Part shown: positions 49,078 through 61,796 of the stretch, piece after piece
Position numbering within the stretch: the first letter of the stretch is position 1
Layout: each line of letters opens with the position of its first letter
Source: Micrococcus cohnii
Lineage (GTDB): Bacteria; Actinomycetota; Actinomycetes; Actinomycetales; Micrococcaceae
Assembly (NCBI RefSeq): GCF_014205175.1
Contig: NZ_JACHNA010000001.1
Span: 186,001-250,000, forward strand
Direction: 5' to 3'
DNA: 64,000 bases
Translations under genes and position numbers: made by a program
Notes under the pieces: model-generated
Database searches by the model: none
The model's input: the letters and a program-made list of their open reading frames with translations, nothing else
Told to the model about the DNA's origin: nothing

Positions 49078-49149
49078 TCCCCCGTAGCTCAACGGCAGAG
49101 CATTCGACTGTTAATCGAAGGGTTGCTGGTTCGAATCCAGCCGGGGGAG
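49078..49149 (+). tRNA. tRNA-Asn (anticodon GTT)
   Basis: Full cloverleaf: the 7-bp acceptor stem TCCCCCG (49078-49084) pairs with CGGGGGA (49142-49148), with discriminator G49149. The D arm is AGCTCAACGGCAGAGC; the anticodon loop CTGTTAA has GTT at 49110-49112; the T loop is TTCGAAT. CCA is not encoded. It is the apparent attachment site of the element that follows. Confidence 0.95.
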
Positions 49150-49452
49150 CTGAGCAGAAGCTCCCTGAGCCCCTGCACCGACTAGTTCGGTGTGGGGGCT
49201 TCGTCGTGCCTGAAGAAGCTCCGGGCCGAGCAGGTCCGCGAGCGAGATGTCTAGCCAGTCGGCAATCTCCATGAGTTCAACGAGGGTGAAATCACGAGTC
49301 GCATTCATGCGGACGCTCACGGCACTTCGGGCGATACCGAGGTGACGCGCGAGGTCGCTCTGTGACTTTTGGCGCCGTCCCAGCCATGCGCGAATCTCAC
49401 TCGCCACCATCGCTGAGCGGGGGTCTCCATTGCTGTGCACTCGTCCTGTCAT
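49111..49452 (-). CDS. XRE-family regulator whose stop codon lies in the tRNA anticodon
   Basis: A 113-residue DNA-binding protein with an XRE/Cro-type HTH at about residues 20-75 (QSDLARHLGIARSAVSVRMN, DFTLVELMEIADWL). ATG 49452 lies 6 nt after minus-strand TACCCT, so it is probably leaderless. The last 30 or so residues are read antisense through the tRNA terminator and the 3' half of tRNA-Asn, and the TAA stop (49113-49111) overlaps the anticodon. It is a paralogue of the divergent XRE protein at 49564. Probable repressor of the element. Confidence 0.75.
   Translation of the reverse strand: MTGRVHSNGDPRSAMVASEIRAWLGRRQKSQSDLARHLGIARSAVSVRMNATRDFTLVELMEIADWLDISLADLLGPELLQARRSPHTELVGAGAQGASAQLPRLDSNQQPFD
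49168..49200 (+). terminator. Terminator of tRNA-Asn
   Basis: A 14-bp stem (49168-49181 with 49187-49200, two wobble pairs) and a 5-nt loop begin 19 nt after the tRNA. It also lies inside the 3' coding end of the opposite-strand XRE gene. Confidence 0.7.
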
Positions 49453-50651: not shown

Positions 50652-51742
50652 GTGCTCAGGAGCAGTGGGAGGCCCGGACGGCCCGGGCCCGACATGAGGA
50701 ATCCCCGGTCAGCGGGCAGGCTGCCGAGGATTCCACTCACGTCCATTCCACGATGCAGGTTGGCTCCAATTCATCGGTTGGACGAGATGAGGATACCGCG
50801 CCCGATGGTGCCGCGTCATCGGAGCGGCCCGTGGGAGTGCCCCGGCGGCTGGACCCTACGGACGGACGGTTCATTCGGGCGATTGTGATCGGGACGGCCA
50901 TCGCCGGGGTGGTGGCGTTCAGCATCAGCTTCGCGGCGTTGTACGAGGTCGCGTCCTGGCTGGGACTGCCGCTGTTCATGAGCTGGGCCGTGCCGGTGTT
51001 CATCGACCTGGCGATCCTCGTTTATGCAGGTTCGGTGCTGATCCATCAGGCCCGTGGCGAATCGGCGCGAGCGTCCTGGTGGGCGCTCGGGGCGTTCACG
51101 GGCTTGTCGATGATCGCTAACGGGGCTCATGCGATGAGCGCGCAGACCGGGAGCGTCTGGCAGTCCTTGGTGGGTGTGACCATCGCGGTGATGGTCCCGG
51201 TGGCCGTGTTCGTGGCTACCGATCAGCTGGCGCGGGTCGCGGTTGAGACGCCGGATTCCCGGCGCGCGGAGCAGGCGACGCAGATGTCGGAGGAGGCCGA
51301 GCAGATCCGGGCTCGGGCCGAGTTGGAGCGTCAGCGTGCCGAGGTTGAGGCGGAGCTCGCGGCCAGTCGTCGGCAGATCGAGTCGGCGCGGCGTGAAGCC
51401 GAGCGTGAGGCCGAGGTCGCTGAGGCTCGGCACCAGCGCGAGCTGGACCGGATGGGTCGTGAGGCTGAGGCCGAGGAGGTCCGGGCGAGCACTGCCTTGG
51501 AGTCCACGGCAACGGTGTCCGAGAGGCAGGAAGACACGACGGCCCCGGCTCCGGCTCCGGTGAAGGCATCGGGTGCTGAGGTGACCGCGTGGATCGTGGA
51601 GCAGGCCGAGGCGGGACAGGCCCCGTCGGCGGCGGAGATTGCCGAGCGGTTTGGGTGCTCGGAGCGCACGGGGCGTCGCCGACTGGCTGATGCGCGTGAG
51701 GCGCACCCGGAGTCGTTCAGCGTGGAGGAGGAGCAGGCATGA
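50648..51742 (+). CDS. DUF2637-type membrane protein with coiled coil and C-terminal HTH
   Basis: A 364-residue protein. Four hydrophobic segments at about 75-100, 110-132, 142-162 and 172-192 match the DUF2637 membrane domain found in Streptomyces plasmids and conjugative elements (Spd-like). A long charged coiled coil follows (about 205-280, Glu/Arg/Ala rich). The last 55 residues carry an HTH (SAAEIAERFGCSERTGRRRLADA). Membrane anchoring combined with DNA binding suggests tethering of element DNA to the membrane. GTG 50648 and ATGA overlaps couple it to its neighbours. Confidence 0.7.
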   Translation: MSAQEQWEARTARARHEESPVSGQAAEDSTHVHSTMQVGSNSSVGRDEDTAPDGAASSERPVGVPRRLDPTDGRFIRAIVIGTAIAGVVAFSISFAALYEVASWLGLPLFMSWAVPVFIDLAILVYAGSVLIHQARGESARASWWALGAFTGLSMIANGAHAMSAQTGSVWQSLVGVTIAVMVPVAVFVATDQLARVAVETPDSRRAEQATQMSEEAEQIRARAELERQRAEVEAELAASRRQIESARREAEREAEVAEARHQRELDRMGREAEAEEVRASTALESTATVSERQEDTTAPAPAPVKASGAEVTAWIVEQAEAGQAPSAAEIAERFGCSERTGRRRLADAREAHPESFSVEEEQA

Positions 51743-52047
51743 GCACGACCGGACGTGAGGACCACGAGGTCGAGATGAACGTGATGGCGGCGGAGTGGGC
51801 CATGAATCGCACCGAGACCACGAGCGTGGAGCAGCGGATGGTGCTGATCCAGCTGGCGGCACGGGCTGACGAGGACGGACGTGGGGCCGTGTCGTTGGCA
51901 CAGCTGGCGCAGTCCAGTGCGCTGACGGTCGGGCAGGTCGAGCGGCATCTTGCCGGGATGAGCTGGCGGCGCGTGCTGGTCGTTGAGGTGCACGACGGGC
52001 GGGTGCTGTACCGGCTTCCGCTGACGGAGAGCGAGGGTCAGGCATGA
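51739..52047 (+). CDS. Small winged-helix protein related to the following initiator
   Basis: A 102-residue protein with a winged-helix pattern: AEWAMNRTETTSVEQRMVLIQLAARADEDG, SLAQLAQSSALTVGQVERHL, VLVVEVHDGRVLYRLPL. It aligns by eye with the first ~90 residues of the next protein (MMWARRVTETG...LNTGQAFVLLLLGDHADEE), so the two look like a duplicated HTH_36-type domain. It may be a copy-control partner; this is inference. ATGA overlaps at both ends. Confidence 0.6.
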   Translation: MSTTGREDHEVEMNVMAAEWAMNRTETTSVEQRMVLIQLAARADEDGRGAVSLAQLAQSSALTVGQVERHLAGMSWRRVLVVEVHDGRVLYRLPLTESEGQA

Positions 52048-53072
52048 GTATCGAGGCGATGATGTGGGCGCGTCGGGTCACGGAGACCGGCGTGCTGAAC
52101 ACCGGCCAGGCGTTCGTGCTGCTGCTCTTGGGGGATCACGCGGACGAGGAGTGGAGCTGCTTCCCGGGCCAGGAGCTGCTGGCTCAGGGGACGGCGCAGT
52201 CGGTGCGGTCGGTCCAGCGTCAGCTGACGAGGCTGGAGGAGCTGGGACTGATCTCGGTGAAGCCGATCTACGGCGGCAGGGACCGTGGTCGGACGGGATC
52301 GCGGTACCAGCTGCACCCTCAGACACTGGAGACGGTCACTGGAGAGCAGGTCGAGAACCGCATGAATCCGCGGGGCGACAATCTGTCGTCCAAATCCGAG
52401 AACCGCATGAGCACGCGGGGCGACAATCTGTCGCCCAAATCCGAGAACCGCATGAATACGCGCCCTGACACTTTGTCGCCCAAACCTGATTTGGGCGACA
52501 CCGTGTCCGATTTGGGCGACAACCACGACATCGCGCCTTATAAGGATCGCGCGCGGACTAACCCTCAAGAACCCTCATTGACTGATCCGTCCGTCAGTCC
52601 GTCTGTCGTCTCCGGTACGCGAGGCGACGACGACGGACCGACGACGGACGACGAGTCCCAGGACGAGGGGGAGGTGGTCCCGGCTTCGCATCGGGGCGTC
52701 GACCTGACCGAGTTGGTCCAGCGAGTCCCAGCCGCTGACTCCCTGGAGGCTGGGCAGGTGCGCTCCATCGTGGACGTGGTCCTGGCTCGGGCGGCTGGAC
52801 CGGTCCGTAAGCCCACCGCGTTCGTGGCCAGGTCGTTGGCCGCCGAGTTCGAGGAGCTGGTGGCGGTTACCCGCCCACGGTCTGCGCCGTCGAGCGGTGC
52901 CGGGGCTGGGCCGGTTGCGGTCCGTCAGGGCCGGGTCGGTGAGCCGTGCGAGAACCCGGGGGTGCATGTGCCCAACTACGGGCGGTCTGTGCTCGATGAC
53001 TGCCCGCACTGCCGGATCGAGCGCCGGATGATCCCGCGTGAGCCGGTCGGAGCCGGGGCGGTGCGTGACTGA
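52044..53072 (+). CDS. Winged-helix replication-initiator-like protein carrying internal repeats
   Basis: A 342-residue protein. Residues 1-95 form a winged helix of the HTH_36 / phage O-protein type (QELLAQGTAQSVRSVQRQLTRLEELGLI). Residues 104-148 are three 15-residue tandem repeats (ENRMNPRGDNLSSKS type), then a Pro/Asp-rich linker, a helical segment (about 225-280), and a Cys-containing tail (CPHC). Lambda O and similar initiators have iterons inside their own gene between the DNA-binding and helicase-recruiting parts; the DNA here shows the same layout. ATG 52044 overlaps the previous stop (ATGA); the stop overlaps the next gene (TGATG). Confidence 0.65.
   Translation: MSIEAMMWARRVTETGVLNTGQAFVLLLLGDHADEEWSCFPGQELLAQGTAQSVRSVQRQLTRLEELGLISVKPIYGGRDRGRTGSRYQLHPQTLETVTGEQVENRMNPRGDNLSSKSENRMSTRGDNLSPKSENRMNTRPDTLSPKPDLGDTVSDLGDNHDIAPYKDRARTNPQEPSLTDPSVSPSVVSGTRGDDDGPTTDDESQDEGEVVPASHRGVDLTELVQRVPAADSLEAGQVRSIVDVVLARAAGPVRKPTAFVARSLAAEFEELVAVTRPRSAPSSGAGAGPVAVRQGRVGEPCENPGVHVPNYGRSVLDDCPHCRIERRMIPREPVGAGAVRD
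52353..52523. repeat. Iteron-like array inside the initiator gene
   Basis: Three 45-nt tandem repeats (52353-52397, 52398-52442, 52443-52487) are followed by two inverted repeat units (52488-52508, 52509-52523). The core GGGCGACA occurs at 52373, 52418, 52493 and 52514; its complement TGTCGCCC is at 52429 and 52474, with one mismatch at 52384. TGTCGCCCAAA (52474-52484) and TTTGGGCGACA (52490-52500) form a perfect palindrome with a 5-nt spacer. A small AT-rich palindrome, CCTTATAAGG, lies at 52536-52545. Candidate replication origin. Confidence 0.7.
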
Positions 53073-53911
53073 TGGGTGAGCGCAACCAGCAGATGACCGA
53101 GGCCGTAGAGGTCTCGGGGGAGGAGCTGGCCGAAGCGGTCGCTTCGGTGCGCGGCACGGTGGTCTCCGTGCTCGGCCCCGCGGGCAACGGTGACGTCGTG
53201 GACGACGTTCTCCAGACCACGTGGGAGGCCGCGTGGAAGTCGCGGGACCGGTTTGACGCCGAGCGCGGATCGTTGCGGACCTGGGTCGGCACAATCGCCC
53301 GGAACAAGGCTGTCGATCACCTGCGTTCGGTCGCTGGGGATCGGGACCGGCAGGAGGTTTTCGAGGCGTCGGCGGTCGCCCGTGAGAAGAACTCGGTGTC
53401 GATGTTCCTGGCTGATCCGACCGACGAGGTTGTCGACGCGATGACCGCGCACAGCGAGGTCGCCGCGATCATGCGGGCCACGTTCGCGTGCATGGAGTCT
53501 CGGCAGATGGCCGCTCGGGCGTTGGCGGTGGTGATGGTCTACCGCGACGACGTGGCGGCTGCGTCGGCGGCGATGGGTGTCTCGGTATCCGCGTTGCGGC
53601 AGGCCCGCCGTGAGCTGGTGCGTTGCGCCCGTGTGGTGCGCGCGGCCCAGCGGGTCGCGGCGTCAGGTGCGCCGGTGACGTTGCGGGTGCTGGTGGGCTG
53701 CCTGCCCGACGACGGCGACGCGGGCGACTGGTCCCGCCAGGTGGCGCTGGCCTGCGCGAAGGCCGGGGGCCGTTTCGAGGCCGTCACGGTCGAGCACATC
53801 ATGCAGACCACCGGGTTCAGCCACTCCACGAGCAGGCAGTACCTCGCGGATACGCGGCATCTGCTGCGGGTCGCGTCGACGGTGATTCGGAACGAGAGGG
53901 GAGAGCAGTGA
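53072..53911 (+). CDS. ECF-like RNA polymerase sigma factor
   Basis: A 279-residue protein. Sigma region 2 is clear: DVVDDVLQTTWEAAWKSRDRFDAERGSLRTWVGTIARNKAVDHLRS (in two parts, about 40-90). A region-4-like HTH follows (VAAASAAMGVSVSALRQARRELV, about 155-177). A C-terminal extension of about 90 residues has another HTH-like stretch (HIMQTTGFSHSTSRQYLADTRHLLR). Longer than usual ECF factors (~180). It probably directs transcription of element genes. ATG 53072 overlaps the previous stop by one base; the next gene overlaps its end (GTGA). Confidence 0.75.
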   Translation: MGERNQQMTEAVEVSGEELAEAVASVRGTVVSVLGPAGNGDVVDDVLQTTWEAAWKSRDRFDAERGSLRTWVGTIARNKAVDHLRSVAGDRDRQEVFEASAVAREKNSVSMFLADPTDEVVDAMTAHSEVAAIMRATFACMESRQMAARALAVVMVYRDDVAAASAAMGVSVSALRQARRELVRCARVVRAAQRVAASGAPVTLRVLVGCLPDDGDAGDWSRQVALACAKAGGRFEAVTVEHIMQTTGFSHSTSRQYLADTRHLLRVASTVIRNERGEQ

Positions 53912-56457: not shown

Positions 56458-58043
56458 GCACCGTGGAAAAGCAGTTTGTCGAGTCCGAGTACGACGGAGT
56501 CCGGTTCCCGCAGGAGCGCACGGCAGGGCTATTGCTCGGGCTGACCTGGGATCAGCTGATCGTCGTCGGGTTCGGGGCGGTGTTCCTGCTGGTGAGCCTG
56601 TTCCGGGGCGGCTGGGCGATCCTTTTTGGTGTGCTTGTGCTGGCGGTCTGCACCGCGTTCGGGGTGGTGCGGTTCCGGGGTCGGTCCCTGCCTGCATGGG
56701 TTGCTGTCGGGCTGCGATACGCCAAGCGTGGAGCGGGCGATCAGCTGGAGTACCGACAGGGTCTGTCTCCGGCACACGAACTGAAGCTGCTTGATGGTGA
56801 ACCGCAGGTGCGTGCGCTGGAGGTCGAGCAGAAGGCGACCCGCACGCCGAAGGGCGCTATCAAGCCCGGCAACCCGACGAGGTTCCGCCTGCCAGGCGGG
56901 GCCAGCGAGCTGAAGGCGTATGCGTTGCCGAACGGTGCCGGGTTCGTGTGGGACCCGCATGAGCGTGAGGCCGTGATCTGCGCGAAGGTCATCACCAGCC
57001 GTGGGTTCAGCCTCGAGTCGTTCGACGCGCAGGAGGAGCGGTCCCTGTCGTGGGGTGCGGCGCTGGCTGGGTTATCCCGGATGCCGGGTGTGGTGCGCGT
57101 GCAGGCATCGGACCAGACCACCCTGATTTCCGGGTCGGCGGTGCAGGGGTTCTACGAGTCGAAGCAGGAGCAGTCCGGGATGAATGCGGCTGAGGTTGAC
57201 CCGTTCCTGGACCAGGCGTTCAAGGAGTTGATGAAGGAAGCGCAGTCGATGCCGGTGCATGAGCAGTGGCTGTCCGTGGTCGTCTCCCCTGCGCAGATTG
57301 GGTCGCGGCTGAAGGGGATGGGCGGCGGTCTTCCGGCCCTGATGGAGTACACGCTGAAGCTGATGACGACCATCGAGGGGCACTTGCCGCGTTCGGGTAC
57401 GCGGGTCGCGGCCTGGCACTCGCCCCGGTCGTTGGCGGCGCTGTCGCGTGCGGCGTTCGATCCTGATTCGTCGGTGACGGTGACGATGACCGGTGAGGAC
57501 GGGGAGCTGCGCGGCACCGCGCCCGCGTCGGCGGGGCCGATGGCCGTGGACGTCCACCCGGGCTACCTGGAGATGGACGGCTACCTGCATCGCACGTTCA
57601 AGATCGCGGAGCTGCCACAGGAGACAGCGCGACTCGGGTTCTTGGACGAGCTGGTGTTCTCCGGGGACTTCCGGCACACGGTGACTGTGGTGATGTCGCC
57701 AGTTGACCGCGCGAAGGCGATGCGCGCGACGCGGGGGCGGCGGTCCTCGTGGGAGTCGGATTCGCGGACGTTGAAGGCGATGGACCGGCCGCCGTCGCCG
57801 GAGCACGAGCAGGAGCTGGTCGACATCATGCGCGAGCAGGACGAGCTGATGCGGCGGCACGCGTCGCTGGACATGGTCGTGCTGGTCACGGTGACCGCGC
57901 GGAGCCTGTCGGAGCTGGAAGCGGCCTCGAACGATGTTGTCACGGACGCCATTGCGACTGGGTGCGAACTGCGCCCGCTGTGGCTCGAACAGGACTCGGC
58001 GTTCATGGCCGCGGCGCTGCCTTTCGGACGGATCAAGCTGTGA
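56454..58043 (+). CDS. SCO6880-family type IV secretion protein (VirB3/VirB4-N-like)
   Basis: A 529-residue protein. Two N-terminal hydrophobic segments (about 30-52 and 53-72) are followed by a soluble part without a P-loop: LEYRQGLSPAHELKLL, a region with EERSLSWGAALAGL, PVHEQWLSVVV, and VTARSLSELEAASNDVV. This is the pattern of the SCO6880 family in actinobacterial conjugative elements, which I read as VirB3 fused to the N-terminal half of VirB4. The ATPase half appears to be the gene at 58225. ATG 56454 overlaps the VirB6-like stop. Confidence 0.68.
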   Translation: MSTVEKQFVESEYDGVRFPQERTAGLLLGLTWDQLIVVGFGAVFLLVSLFRGGWAILFGVLVLAVCTAFGVVRFRGRSLPAWVAVGLRYAKRGAGDQLEYRQGLSPAHELKLLDGEPQVRALEVEQKATRTPKGAIKPGNPTRFRLPGGASELKAYALPNGAGFVWDPHEREAVICAKVITSRGFSLESFDAQEERSLSWGAALAGLSRMPGVVRVQASDQTTLISGSAVQGFYESKQEQSGMNAAEVDPFLDQAFKELMKEAQSMPVHEQWLSVVVSPAQIGSRLKGMGGGLPALMEYTLKLMTTIEGHLPRSGTRVAAWHSPRSLAALSRAAFDPDSSVTVTMTGEDGELRGTAPASAGPMAVDVHPGYLEMDGYLHRTFKIAELPQETARLGFLDELVFSGDFRHTVTVVMSPVDRAKAMRATRGRRSSWESDSRTLKAMDRPPSPEHEQELVDIMREQDELMRRHASLDMVVLVTVTARSLSELEAASNDVVTDAIATGCELRPLWLEQDSAFMAAALPFGRIKL

Positions 58044-58063
58044 CGAGCAGGGGAGGACGAGAG

Positions 58064-58222
58064 ATGACGGTGAATCTGACGGCAGGCGTCGAGCAGAAGG
58101 CGCAGGAGCTGAGGATCGAGCGACTGGTCCTGTTCGGTCGGATTGGTCAGGGCAAGGGCGCGTTGGTGCGTCGGCTGATGGGGCAGGGCGTGACGTGCGG
58201 CCCCGTGTCGGGGAGGTTCTGA
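58064..58222 (+). CDS. Possible 52-residue small protein with a P-loop-like stretch
   Basis: ATG 58064 has a good GGAGGA 8 nt upstream and the frame ends at 58222, 2 nt before the next start. The product contains LFGRIGQGKGALVRRL, which looks like a degenerate copy of the Walker A region of the following ATPase (LFGQVGTGKSSLAKSL). It may be a remnant of an ATPase duplication or a real small protein. No family recognised. Confidence 0.4.
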   Translation: MTVNLTAGVEQKAQELRIERLVLFGRIGQGKGALVRRLMGQGVTCGPVSGRF

Positions 58223-58224
58223 TC

Positions 58225-59733
58225 GTGGGACGTTCGACCGAGCATGGGCTGTTCCAGGTCATCGAGGATGGACGCGAGAACCGGCGTGAGGCGCAGAAGG
58301 CCCAACGGCAGCTGAACCGTGAACGCGCGAAACGGCGTCGGGAGCGGGCGAGGGAGGCCAAGCAAGACCGATTCCCAGAGCCGGAGGGTCGCAAGGTCGG
58401 GCCGTCGGGGAAGTACCAGTTGCGTGGGATGCACACGCTGGCCCCTCGTGCGGTCCGCACGACCTCGCACACGGCGAGCACGGCGTACCCATTCGTGGCA
58501 GGGCCGGGGTTGGGCGCCCAGGGCCTCTACATCGGGCGTGACATGAACGGTGGCGGGGCGTTCTGCTTCGACCCGTGGTCGCTCTACAAGTCCGGGGTCA
58601 TCTCGGGAATGTCGATGATGCTGTTCGGGCAGGTCGGCACGGGGAAGTCATCGCTGGCGAAGTCGCTGGCGGTGCGGCAGGTGCTGGCCGGGCGCAAGCT
58701 CTCGGTCGCCTCGGACAAGAAGGGCGAGTGGACCCGCGTGGTCCGGGGCCTGGGCGGCACTGTGATCCAGGTCGGGCCGGGCCTGGAGACGCGCCTGAAC
58801 CCGCTCGATCCTGGGACGCGTCCCTCGACGGATGTGGAGGGCAAGCCGATGACGGATCACGCGTGGGCGATGATGGTCCGCACCCGGCGGATGTCGATCC
58901 TGGTGACGCTGGCACGCATCCTCACCGACCGTGACCTGACCTCGCCCGAGCATCACGTTCTCGCGGGTGCCCTGGACTCGGCGGTGGCGACGGCGGCGCG
59001 TGAGTCGCGGGTGCCGGTGATCCCTGACGTGATCGCGGCGTTGCAGGTTCAGCGAGACGATGAGGACAAGCTCATTGTGGAAGCAGCGTCGGTGATGATG
59101 ATGACCCTTACGCGCGTCTCCTCTGGTGACCTCGCGGGCATGTTCGATGGGGAGACGACTGCGGTGCTCGACTCGTCAGCGCGGGCGACGTCGATCGACA
59201 CCTCGGCGCTGCGCGGTGCTTCCCCGGAGGCGGTGCGTGTGGTGAACGCGTGCGCTGGTGCCTGGACGGAGGCGATGGTGACCACCCGTGACGGGGGCCA
59301 GCGCCTGGTGATCTACGAAGAGGGCTGGGACAACATCTCGAGCGAGGCTGACCTGCGGCGCATGGTCGAGCAGTGGAAGCTCGCGAGGGCCTACGGCATC
59401 TTCAACGTGCTCGTGCTCCACAAGATCGCGGACCTCGAGATGGCCGGTGACAAGGACTCCCGCATGGCCGCGATGGCGAAGTCGTTGCTGTCTGACGCGG
59501 ACGTGAAGGTCATCTACCGGCAGGACCGGTCGGCGTTGAAGGTCACCGGCTCGGAGATGGAGCTGTCGGACCGGGAGCGGGCGCTGGTGCGGTCCCTGCC
59601 GAAGGGCACGGGCTTGTGGCGGCTCGGGGATTCATCGTTCGAGGTGCAGAACCGGCTCACGAAGGCCGAGCTGCCTCTGTTCGACACCGATGAGCGCATG
59701 GACAAGCAGCAGAATGAGGAGGTGTCGGCATGA
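58225..59733 (+). CDS. VirB4-like type IV secretion ATPase
   Basis: A 502-residue ATPase powering assembly of the conjugation channel. A very basic N-terminus (about 20-50) is followed by the P-loop domain: Walker A GQVGTGKS (135-142), Walker B LVIYEE (361-366) and a conserved Gln/Arg-like region (VIYRQDRSALK) near 430. GTG 58225 follows GGAGG at 8 nt. It lies next to the SCO6880-type gene and overlaps the coupling-protein gene (ATGA). Confidence 0.8.
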   Translation: MGRSTEHGLFQVIEDGRENRREAQKAQRQLNRERAKRRRERAREAKQDRFPEPEGRKVGPSGKYQLRGMHTLAPRAVRTTSHTASTAYPFVAGPGLGAQGLYIGRDMNGGGAFCFDPWSLYKSGVISGMSMMLFGQVGTGKSSLAKSLAVRQVLAGRKLSVASDKKGEWTRVVRGLGGTVIQVGPGLETRLNPLDPGTRPSTDVEGKPMTDHAWAMMVRTRRMSILVTLARILTDRDLTSPEHHVLAGALDSAVATAARESRVPVIPDVIAALQVQRDDEDKLIVEAASVMMMTLTRVSSGDLAGMFDGETTAVLDSSARATSIDTSALRGASPEAVRVVNACAGAWTEAMVTTRDGGQRLVIYEEGWDNISSEADLRRMVEQWKLARAYGIFNVLVLHKIADLEMAGDKDSRMAAMAKSLLSDADVKVIYRQDRSALKVTGSEMELSDRERALVRSLPKGTGLWRLGDSSFEVQNRLTKAELPLFDTDERMDKQQNEEVSA

Positions 59734-61796
59734 AGCGCGAAAACCAGCAGGTGCTCGAAGGTGCTGACTGGCCGGAGAAGATGCTCCTGTTCGTGATGCT
59801 CCCGGTGATGGGCCTGTACATGCTGTACGTCGCGGCGGGGTTCCTCGCGGTCCGGGTGGCCTGTGGTGAGCCGCCGATCCCCGAGGGGCTGCTGGCACCG
59901 CTGGGGTTCGTGGCCACGCAGGACCCGGCAGCGTTCGGCACGACGGCCTCGGGCTGCACGGCCACCAGTCAGGGTGTCACCGGCGCGCTGATCGGAGTGG
60001 GTGTCGCAGGCGTCGTCGCCCTGGTCGTCGGTGTGACGGCGTGGCAGAAGTACCAGCAGTCGGACAAGAAGTTCATCAAGGACCTGCGGGAGCGTGACGG
60101 GCTGGCGCGGTCTCCGGAGATTGCCAAGGCCGTGGGTCGCAAGGCCGTGCTGGGTCGGGTGAAGAAGGTGCGCCCGTCGATCAAGAAGCCGAAGATCACC
60201 GACGGGTCGATGCGGCTGGGCAAGGCTGAGGGCGTCGACGTGTTCGCCTCCTATGAGGAGTCGGTCGTGCTCATCGGCCCGCCGCGCTCGGGTAAGGGTG
60301 TGCACCTGTTGATCGGTGCGATTCTCGATGCGCCGGGGCCGGTCATCACGACCAGCTCGCGTGCGGACAACCTCGGCGCGACGGCCGAGATGCGGAAGAA
60401 GAAGGGTCCGGTCGCGTTGTTCGACCCGCAGGGCCTGACGGGGCAGCCCTCGACGCTGAAGTGGTCCCCCATCACCGGGTGTGAGGAGCCGCGGGTGGCG
60501 AACCAGCGGTCGGCGTCGCTGATCGGCGCCTCGGGGCTGGGGGCGTCGAGTTCGAACGCGGAGTGGCAGGCCCCGGCGATCACGATCATGGAGTGCCTGC
60601 TGCACGCCGCCGCGCTGGGGGACCGGACCGTCGATGACTTGATGCGGTGGGGCAACAACCCGGCTGAGGCGAAGGAAGCGGTCAAGATCCTGACGGAGCA
60701 CCCGAAGGCCGCGATGAACTGGAACCTCGTGTTGAAGGGGATCATCGAGGGCGACCCGAAGCTGTTGCAGTCGAAGTGGTTCGGCGTCGAGGGCGCGGTG
60801 AAGGGCCTGTCGGTGCCGGAAGTGCGTGATGTGCTGCGTCCGGGCGAGTTCGAGGAAGTGCTCGACATCGACAAGTTCCTCACCGAGTGCGGGACGCTCT
60901 ACATTGTCGGCACGAAGACGGGCGGCTCCAGTGCGGGGCCGTTCCTGATCGCGATGATGGACGCGATCACGGAGCGGGCGCGTGAGCTGGCGGCGAAGTC
61001 GCCGGGGAACCGGCTCGATCCGCCGTTGTCGTTGGTGCTGGACGAGATCGCGAACATCTCGGGTGCCTGGCCGGGTCTGACGCAGCTGATGGCCGATGGT
61101 GGCGGTGTTGGGGTGTCTCCGTTCGCGGTGTTCCAGTCGATGGCTCAGGCCCGTAACGAGTGGGGAGAGCAGCAGGCGCAGGCGCTGTTCGACGCGGCCA
61201 CGGTGAAGGTCCAGCTCGGTGGTGCCTCGAACGTCGCGGACCTGGAGCAGTTCGCGAAGCTGGCCGGTCAGCGGAAGATCCTGCGGTCCTCGACGTCGCG
61301 CGGCAAGGAGTCCACGTCGGTGTCGGAGCAGGTGCACGAGGCCGAGGTCGTATCGGTGTCGGAGCTGCGTCGTCTGCCGTTCGGCTGGGGGCTGCTGCTG
61401 AACCGCAACGGGCGGCCGATCCTGATGCAGATGACCCGGTGGTGGGACCGCAAGGACGGCAAGGAGATCAAGGCGGCAGCGGGCCGGTACTCGAAGGCGC
61501 TGCTGGACGAGCTCGAGTCGAAGGAAGCCGGGTCGTCCGAGCCGACGGCGGCGGACCGCGCCGACAACCCGGACACGGTGCAGCCGAAGCCTGAGTCCTC
61601 TCCCGTGCCGGAGTCCACGACTGCGGAGACGACGCAGAAGGAGCCTGCGGCCCCGGCCGAGGTGGAGCCGCAGACGGAGTCCTCGTCTACGGAGGACACC
61701 GCGCAGGACTCGGCGGAAGAGACCGAGGGCTCGACGGCGACGGAGCAGAAGCCGGAGCCAGAGCAGGCACCGGACCCGGCAATCGTGGTGCGGTGA
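59730..61796 (+). CDS. VirD4/TraG-type coupling protein
   Basis: A 688-residue ATPase that brings the DNA-relaxase complex to the secretion channel. Two N-terminal membrane segments (about 18-42 and 83-104) enclose a loop of about 40 residues. Walker A GPPRSGKG (183-190) and Walker B LSLVLDEI (433-440) define the motor domain. An acidic, Glu/Pro/Thr-rich unstructured tail of about 100 residues ends the protein, likely for substrate contacts. ATG 59730 overlaps the VirB4-like stop. Confidence 0.85.
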   Translation: MKRENQQVLEGADWPEKMLLFVMLPVMGLYMLYVAAGFLAVRVACGEPPIPEGLLAPLGFVATQDPAAFGTTASGCTATSQGVTGALIGVGVAGVVALVVGVTAWQKYQQSDKKFIKDLRERDGLARSPEIAKAVGRKAVLGRVKKVRPSIKKPKITDGSMRLGKAEGVDVFASYEESVVLIGPPRSGKGVHLLIGAILDAPGPVITTSSRADNLGATAEMRKKKGPVALFDPQGLTGQPSTLKWSPITGCEEPRVANQRSASLIGASGLGASSSNAEWQAPAITIMECLLHAAALGDRTVDDLMRWGNNPAEAKEAVKILTEHPKAAMNWNLVLKGIIEGDPKLLQSKWFGVEGAVKGLSVPEVRDVLRPGEFEEVLDIDKFLTECGTLYIVGTKTGGSSAGPFLIAMMDAITERARELAAKSPGNRLDPPLSLVLDEIANISGAWPGLTQLMADGGGVGVSPFAVFQSMAQARNEWGEQQAQALFDAATVKVQLGGASNVADLEQFAKLAGQRKILRSSTSRGKESTSVSEQVHEAEVVSVSELRRLPFGWGLLLNRNGRPILMQMTRWWDRKDGKEIKAAAGRYSKALLDELESKEAGSSEPTAADRADNPDTVQPKPESSPVPESTTAETTQKEPAAPAEVEPQTESSSTEDTAQDSAEETEGSTATEQKPEPEQAPDPAIVVR

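Follow-up and report, generated by a model that had tools for sequence, protein, structure and literature searches.

In phage λ the iterons of ori-λ lie in the middle of the initiator gene, O, with an AT-rich tract beside them (features of record J02459; PMC7466680, available text). In the staphylococcal plasmid pSK41, the Rep boxes are located centrally in the rep gene, preceded by the region for a winged helix-turn-helix (HTH) and followed by that for a primase-binding C terminus; in pPR9 a divergent stretch of approximately 500 bp replaces both the DNA-binding domain and the in-gene origin of pSK41 (PMC5703833). According to the accessible part of the same report, that stretch carries the pfam13730 HTH of the pPR9 Rep protein, and a mini-replicon can be built on the pPR9 rep region. 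An origin inside the gene for its own initiator is a known class, represented by phage λ O and by pPR9, which has the same Pfam domain as the protein described here. The domain pfam13730 has also been noted in phage replication or early-region proteins (PMC4936722 and PMC8951638, in the parts available).

Among conjugative elements, TnGBS1 and TnGBS2 possess a dedicated theta replication that is independent of the relaxase (PMC5704250, accessible text). Actinobacterial elements of the FtsK type replicate by RepSA, RepAM or Prim-Pol, and actinobacterial T4SS-type integrative conjugative elements (ICEs) are generally assumed not to replicate autonomously, with few known exceptions (PMC3218068, in the text available). 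Helicases, a DNA polymerase III subunit and a primase are given as replication genes of actinobacterial ICEs in the accessible part of PMC6579920. HTH_36 is absent from the Pfam table of PMC3218068, as far as that table was accessible. The first-pass annotation had called a theta-type, iteron-controlled origin in a VirB4/VirD4 element unusual and possibly undescribed. This fits the assumption made for actinobacterial T4SS elements (PMC3218068), and is too broad as a general statement in view of theta-replicating ICEs in Firmicutes (PMC5704250) and of pPR9 (PMC5703833), each as described in the available text.

The putative initiator gene and its element

The window, which is the whole 64-kb stretch of DNA analysed here (G000:C1:186001-250000 of a single-contig 2.28-Mb genome), contains on the + strand a gene at 52044-53072 encoding a protein of 342 aa. 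The protein was examined by Pfam, PHROG comparison, an AlphaFold model and alignment. Its N terminus matches HTH_36 (PF13730) at 8.8e-13, with 48.3 bits against a cut-off of 25 and hence above the curated threshold, and among PHROGs it is matched best by phage replication initiation families (down to 6.3e-18). No Pfam match was found for the C-terminal domain in the Pfam scan, and Phage_rep_O (PF04492) was absent from the Pfam matches at E ≤0.1. As the AlphaFold model was built with 20 sequences in the alignment and had a pTM of 0.38, only its domains were trusted. It contains a winged helix at residues 1-98, predicted with high confidence (helices within 3-66, wing at 70-90), a low-confidence linker at 108-206, mostly with pLDDT <50, and, towards the C terminus, helices at 221-276; a Cys/His cluster at 302-323 was read off the alignment. 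From the model and the co-variation described below, codons 43-66 (52170-52241, + strand) specify a helix at 43-50, which includes Q43, and the putative recognition helix at 54-66, with R55, Q58 and R59.

A Foldseek search of the model against the PDB gave MarR-type regulators as the best matches (E 1.9e-3), with the N-terminal domain of DnaD at rank 38. Against a viral library, 113 models matched at E ≤0.001, including HTH phage proteins and a putative replication protein O. Matches of the sequence profile to solved structures were weak, the DnaD N-terminal domain scoring E 0.13 and MarR-like regulators also appearing; ribosomal protein L32 was matched at 0.018, in the C-terminal Cys region. 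The HTH_36 phage proteins annotated as 'replication initiation O-like' (PHROGs 1032, 270, 391 and 678) share the N-terminal family, and part of them carry the AACC repeats described below; viral-contig matches extend no further than residue 138 of the window protein. The C-terminal domain is common to relatives in genomes of the same family. The HTH_36 and PHROG matches support identification of the product of 52044-53072 as an O-like/HTH_36 initiator homologue.

In contrast to λ O, the window protein has no PF04492 match and no P loader gene downstream, and strict membership of the λ O family was therefore rejected; the iteron sequences also differ. The λ O-like design put forward in the first-pass annotation holds for the in-gene iterons and the O-like/HTH_36 homology, and fails for the Phage_rep_O match and the adjacent P-like loader. 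The closest functional precedent is pPR9, whose Rep belongs to the same Pfam DNA-binding family (PMC5703833, accessible part); Rep proteins of the pSK41/pPR9 type (RepA_N; staphylococcal) differ in coming from Firmicute plasmids, and are likened here by description, not by sequence. The streptococcal elements TnGBS1 and TnGBS2 resemble the window element in the proposed replication mode. Overlapping the start of the initiator gene is an ORF of 102 aa (51739-52047) with weak HTH_36 and PHROG replication-initiation matches, which was not found by tblastn in five related elements.

The gene lies within an element that starts at a tRNA-Asn gene (49078-49150, + strand). The tRNA 3′ end at 49112-49150 is the probable left attachment site, and a copy of these 39 nt with two mismatches is present at G000:C1:317092, approximately 82 kb away; it was found by alignment and is missed by an exact 14-mer search. 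The element is thus bounded by direct repeats at a tRNA gene, the right one being partial. On the opposite strand, an XRE-type repressor-like ORF (49111-49452) reaches into the tRNA-Asn 3′ end, and in the genus part of this stretch is retained next to the tRNA. The T4SS genes occupy 57934-61796 on the + strand, as judged by Pfam and gene order. A VirD4-like coupling protein is encoded at 59730-61796 (TraG-D_C, 7.5e-24). The preceding ORF, 57934-59733 (start uncertain), has weak Pfam matches and adjoins the coupling-protein gene in relatives too; we read it as a putative VirB4-type ATPase. The element also encodes a MobF/TrwC relaxase (2.8e-69), approximately 24 kb from the initiator gene, and a Phage_integrase protein. 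By its relaxase, coupling protein and integrase it classifies as a MobF T4SS integrative conjugative element. It shares the integrase, the MobF relaxase and, with its putative VirB4, the VirB4/VirD4 set of the actinobacterial MobF T4SS ICEs of PMC3218068 and differs from them in its HTH_36 initiator, a type of protein not mentioned in the accessible text of that source.

The gene order orf49791 - DUF2637 - initiator - sigma-like is conserved in five related elements. T4SS genes follow in four of the five, and none were present in the fetched stretch of the fifth (L022). The sigma-like gene (53072-53911), immediately after the initiator, encodes a Sigma70_r2-like protein and is present in all five. 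A helicase loader was sought among 19 scanned proteins of the element and not found; the immediate neighbour of the initiator is this Sigma70_r2-like gene. Several other features of the element were seen. An Eco57I-type methylase and a BsuBI/PstI-type restriction endonuclease adjoin the relaxase (L016:13492-16031), and metal transporter-like genes were recognised by eye. One transposase occurs four times (L016:4155-5399, L102:4764-6008, L103:1018-2262 and L017:4674-7196), with one copy split by another insertion. A second integrase, together with ParA-like and peptidase genes that appear by eye to be duplicated, lies between att-like repeats, which suggests tandem or decayed elements.

The iteron array and the recognition helix

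A repeat search identified three 45-nt direct repeats on the + strand at 52352-52486. The units 52352-52396, 52397-52441 and 52442-52486 are 100, 91 and 80% identical to the first, an additional 13-nt repeat occurs at 52488/52509, and there are inverted pairs among the repeats, so that direct and inverted units together span 52352-52522. All six exact copies of GGGCGACA on both strands of the window fall within 52373-52521; a shuffled sequence would be expected to contain 6.47, but spread across 64 kb. A seventh half-site, TGTCGTCC at 52384-52391, has one mismatch. The half-sites are arranged as dyads. The first, at 52373-52391, has the form 8+3+8 with one mismatch, the second, at 52418-52436, is the perfect GGGCGACA-ATC-TGTCGCCC, and the third, at 52463-52481, is degenerate in its left half and intact in its right. 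A perfect palindrome with 11-bp arms follows at 52474-52500 (TGTCGCCCAAA at 52474-52484 and TTTGGGCGACA at 52490-52500), and TTTGGGCGACA recurs on the + strand at 52511-52521 as the last half-site. Beyond it lies an AT-rich palindrome, CCTTATAAGG, at 52536-52545. Of all 50-nt stretches of the gene, the one richest in AT starts at this palindrome, beside the iterons, though it is just 50% AT, compared with a mean of 33%. The array starts at codon 103, right after the predicted winged helix, and with the module behind it occupies codons 103-178, which encode most of the low-confidence linker. The GC-skew profile, considered as a possible theta signature, has no sign switch at the array, merely a dip to approximately zero.

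The first-pass annotation had described three 45-nt repeats, inverted units, seven half-sites, a perfect palindrome with 11-bp arms followed by an AT-rich one, and a location between the winged-helix region and the rest of the gene. All of these are present, with the reservation that the left half of the third repeat unit is degenerate.

Inverted 8-mer pairs in the window gene number 51, compared with a mean of 20.4 in synonymous-codon shuffles. None of 200 shuffles reached 51, which argues that the array is not a by-product of a peptide repeat. When the same test was applied to 55 genes chosen by homology, at most 10 of 200 shuffles reached the gene's own count in 28 genes, and more than 10 did so in the other 27. 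Among the nearest relatives, L062 has mismatched dyads, and 139 of 200 shuffles reach its count; the counts of L068, L069, L071, L073 and L074 were likewise not significant.

Of the genomes searched, those with a relative of the initiator number 5 of 11 for the genus, 32 of 395 for the family and 35 of 396 for the order, where the cut-off was E ≤1e-6. The survey of relatives for the array, which the first-pass annotation had proposed, showed that close relatives hold one at the same place but with their own half-sites. L062-L064 have four units each with a 45-nt period, and the dyad GGGCGACA-ATC-TGTCGCCC of the window corresponds to ACCCGACA-ATC-TGTCGGGT in L063 and ACCCGCCA-ATT-TGGCGGGT in L064; L067-L069 have GCAA-type half-sites. 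In-gene dyads are also present in the genes of many HTH_36 'replication initiation O-like' phage proteins.

To compare dyads between relatives, units were chosen by peptide pattern and not by palindromicity, giving 25 units, 18 of them distinct. Compensation was measured on 17 of the 18 distinct units, from nine genes, the one left out (L138, codon 228) lying in the C-terminal part. Paired cells amounted to 79.7%, compared with 62.5% after shuffling, and covariation to 0.423 compared with 0.190, a value reached in none of 500 shuffles. Changes on both sides were seen in 7 of 9 pairs, compared with 5.2 in shuffles. The three outer pairs, which are nearly free of the peptide pattern, were paired in 70.6% of cells, compared with 52.9%, and one of 500 shuffles reached this. 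The dyads therefore change in a compensated way across relatives.

Half-sites were extracted automatically for 177 genes with an HTH match. As raw half-sites included some CG runs, low-complexity ones were removed and a support of at least 4 was required, leaving 81 of 177 rows, and 53 genes after dereplication at 70% HTH identity. Association was then scored blind between 99 HTH columns and 8 half-site positions, with no column preselected. The strongest associations among the 53 genes were residue 43 with position 1 (Z 9.7), 59 with 7 (7.4), 55 with 6 (7.2) and 90 with 1 (6.5), followed by 58 with 2 (6.4), 26 with 4 (6.3) and 58 with 4 (5.6). Residues 55, 58 and 59 lie within the model helix 54-66, and residue 43 opens helix 43-50. 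Of the 26 genes with Arg59, 23 have C at position 7; of the 27 with another residue, 21 have A there. Under stricter dereplication (45%, 25 genes) residue 58 led, with Z 7.3 for 58-position 2 (0 of 300 permutations). Residues 43 and 55 remained listed, and 59 with position 8 was in the best 12, 59 with position 7 falling outside it. In disjoint pairs of relatives, Arg59/C7 changed as expected in 22, in the opposite way in none and was unchanged in 7 (n=29); the corresponding numbers were 19, 0 and 8 for Gln43/A1 (n=27), and 16, 4 and 10 for Gln or Lys58/G2 (n=30). Columns not expected at the DNA, L90, L26 and K73, also scored Z 5-6.5. Taken together, the co-variation is strong evidence that each protein would bind the iterons within its own gene; it is indirect, because the permutations ignore shared ancestry and columns 90 and 26 score too.

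The AACCNYCA repeats

Behind the array lies a second module, consisting of a CG tract, CGCGCGCG, at 52548-52555 and two copies of AACCCTCA on the + strand at 52560-52577, 10 nt apart and in two reading frames. The CGCGCGCG tract also precedes AACC copies in seven close relatives (L062-L064 and L067-L070), and many relatives have a CG tract and repeated AACCNTCA behind the iterons, although the encoded peptide differs. In L118 and L085 a longer CG-rich palindrome takes in the CG tract; ATCA-rich repeats come after it, and there is no AACC pair.

A pair of AAYCNYCA copies 9-14 nt apart was found in 18 of 54 genes (the 55 chosen by homology, less L123, a fragment of 136 aa), whereas 300 synonymous shuffles gave 3.55 such genes on average and never more than 7; the count of 18 was not blind, since some of these relatives are where the motif first came to notice. 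As an independent check, two related-loci scans and a pattern scan of viral contigs were used. AACC repeats were present in 8 of 23 dereplicated genes from the related-loci scans, a count without a shuffle control, and all eight were on viral contigs. The viral-contig scan required three AACCNYCA copies separated by gaps of 2-5 nt, and the reversed pattern served as control; the numbers refer to the matches listed, which are not random samples. Among these, the motif was found at 120 loci, of which 110 had an ORF over the match and 83 had an HTH initiator domain (E <1e-3) in that ORF. The control gave 116 further loci among the matches listed, 93 with an ORF and none with an HTH domain. Loci without an ORF of at least 80 aa over the match made up 10 of 120 and 23 of 116, respectively, of those listed. 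Four loci holding both patterns were counted with the motif set, and none of the four had an HTH match.

Among the matches listed, the spacing of AACC copies was 11 nt in 70 of 135 cases from 60 non-redundant genes (the pattern restricts spacing, to 10-13 nt, only for its three copies), and in 78 of 83 genes the copies were spread over two or three frames. Thirteen named genes were also inspected, and an AACC pair was found only in that of Pseudomonas phage MD8; the λ O gene, one of the thirteen, has no coding-strand AACCNYCA copies, unlike the window gene. A fourteenth named record, a Streptomyces plasmid with no annotated initiator gene and a single AACC copy, was not counted. With frequencies of 18/54, 8/23 and 1/13, the repeats are not universal in such initiator genes. 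A stricter pattern, the CG tract plus two AACC copies, was judged too strict because it had no matches in viral contigs and matched in only 2 of 396 genomes of the order, at the window's own place and in one relative.

We rate at about even the chances of a wider proposal, under which a second origin element, made of AACCNYCA repeats approximately one helical turn apart and independent of reading frame, is widespread among HTH_36 initiator genes, from those of actinobacterial conjugative elements to those of phages. The element would keep its sequence while the iterons and the recognition helix diverge together, and would therefore mark either the strand that is opened and bound by the initiator or the place where a conserved replication factor lands. 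Strand opening is our first guess for its role, as the AT-rich tract is bound in single-stranded form by lambdoid O proteins (PMC7466680, available text). HTH_36 initiators would then carry a readable code, in which residues 43, 55, 58 and 59 correspond to half-site positions 1, 6, 2-4 and 7. The AACC module is the part of the locus with the most novelty and the least explanation.

A candidate origin and the alternatives

The repeats are real, and are most likely an in-gene origin with its initiator. We consider it probable that the gene encodes the replication initiator of the integrated conjugative element, and that the middle of the gene is its origin. The winged-helix domain, probably as a dimer, would bind the dyad iterons (52373-52521), which lie in the part of its own gene that encodes the linker, as the co-variation suggests. 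Loading of the iterons may then open the adjoining module at approximately 52536-52580, with its AT-rich palindrome, CG tract and AACCCTCA repeats, and the constant AACCNYCA repeats would serve as contact either for the strand thus opened or for some conserved replication factor. By analogy with λ O and pSK41, the C-terminal domain could recruit the host replicative helicase or primase, and the excised circle would replicate by a theta-type mechanism. Lineages would switch iterons and recognition helix together, giving each element its own origin specificity.

The co-variation would indicate binding, not its purpose, and the protein might instead bind inside its own gene as an operator, controlling transcription of the operon and not replication. 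The sigma-like gene downstream, the T4SS genes that follow in four of five related elements, and the MarR-type regulators at the head of the PDB matches would all suit this. We nevertheless think it improbable, since by sequence the protein is closest to families of replication initiators, the array is followed by a second conserved DNA module, and similar architecture occurs in phage genes, some of them beside P or DnaB-like genes. In 3 of 11 phage records a P or DnaB-like gene lies immediately behind the initiator, one of these three P or DnaB-like genes being matched via its C-terminal part only. Accessory HTH proteins and inverted repeats are found at oriT, and the element encodes a MobF/TrwC relaxase and T4SS genes, so the region could be a conjugative transfer site (a relaxosome accessory site or oriT) with no part in vegetative replication. 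Against this, a similar architecture and the AACC module are seen in many viral contigs, and phages do not conjugate; the relaxase gene is also some 24 kb distant, and we regard a transfer site as very unlikely.

Hardly credible, in our estimate, is that the DNA pattern merely reflects a linker peptide repeated by duplication or slippage, with no role at the DNA level. The unit length is divisible by three, repeats in a linker may expand with ease, and the 27 genes whose counts are reached by more than 10 of 200 shuffles would be accommodated; the window gene's own shuffle result, the compensated dyads, the association of half-sites with recognition-helix residues and the spread of AACC copies over two or three frames all argue the other way. 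A further reading accepts the origin and holds that this copy is dead, the element having decayed through insertion sequences and tandem remnants. The four transposase copies, one of them split, the second integrase and second partial gene set between att-like repeats, and the degenerate third dyad are consistent with it, and the element, full of insertion sequences, may no longer move. Death of the origin itself seems unlikely, because the initiator, coupling-protein and relaxase frames are open, and dyads and AACC copies are intact, save that the third unit is degenerate and the first has one mismatch.

For the preferred reading, an in-gene origin with its own initiator, what appears new within the literature searched is the occurrence of such an initiator in an actinobacterial MobF/T4SS element, together with the AACCNYCA signal. 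That search, in which subscription journals were thinly covered and sources were available in part, yielded nothing on this class of initiator in such elements, on the AACC repeats or on the co-variation. The AACC repeats pose the question of whether they are read by a conserved factor or by part of the initiator, and if the proposal is true their independence of reading frame would make them a simple handle for origins in unannotated phages and elements. Co-variation of initiator and iterons would likewise make origin specificity, and hence incompatibility of coexisting elements or phages, predictable from sequence. Micrococcaceae T4SS elements would then possess in-gene theta origins of their own, which the account in the accessible text of PMC3218068 does not require and for which, apparently, it did not look.
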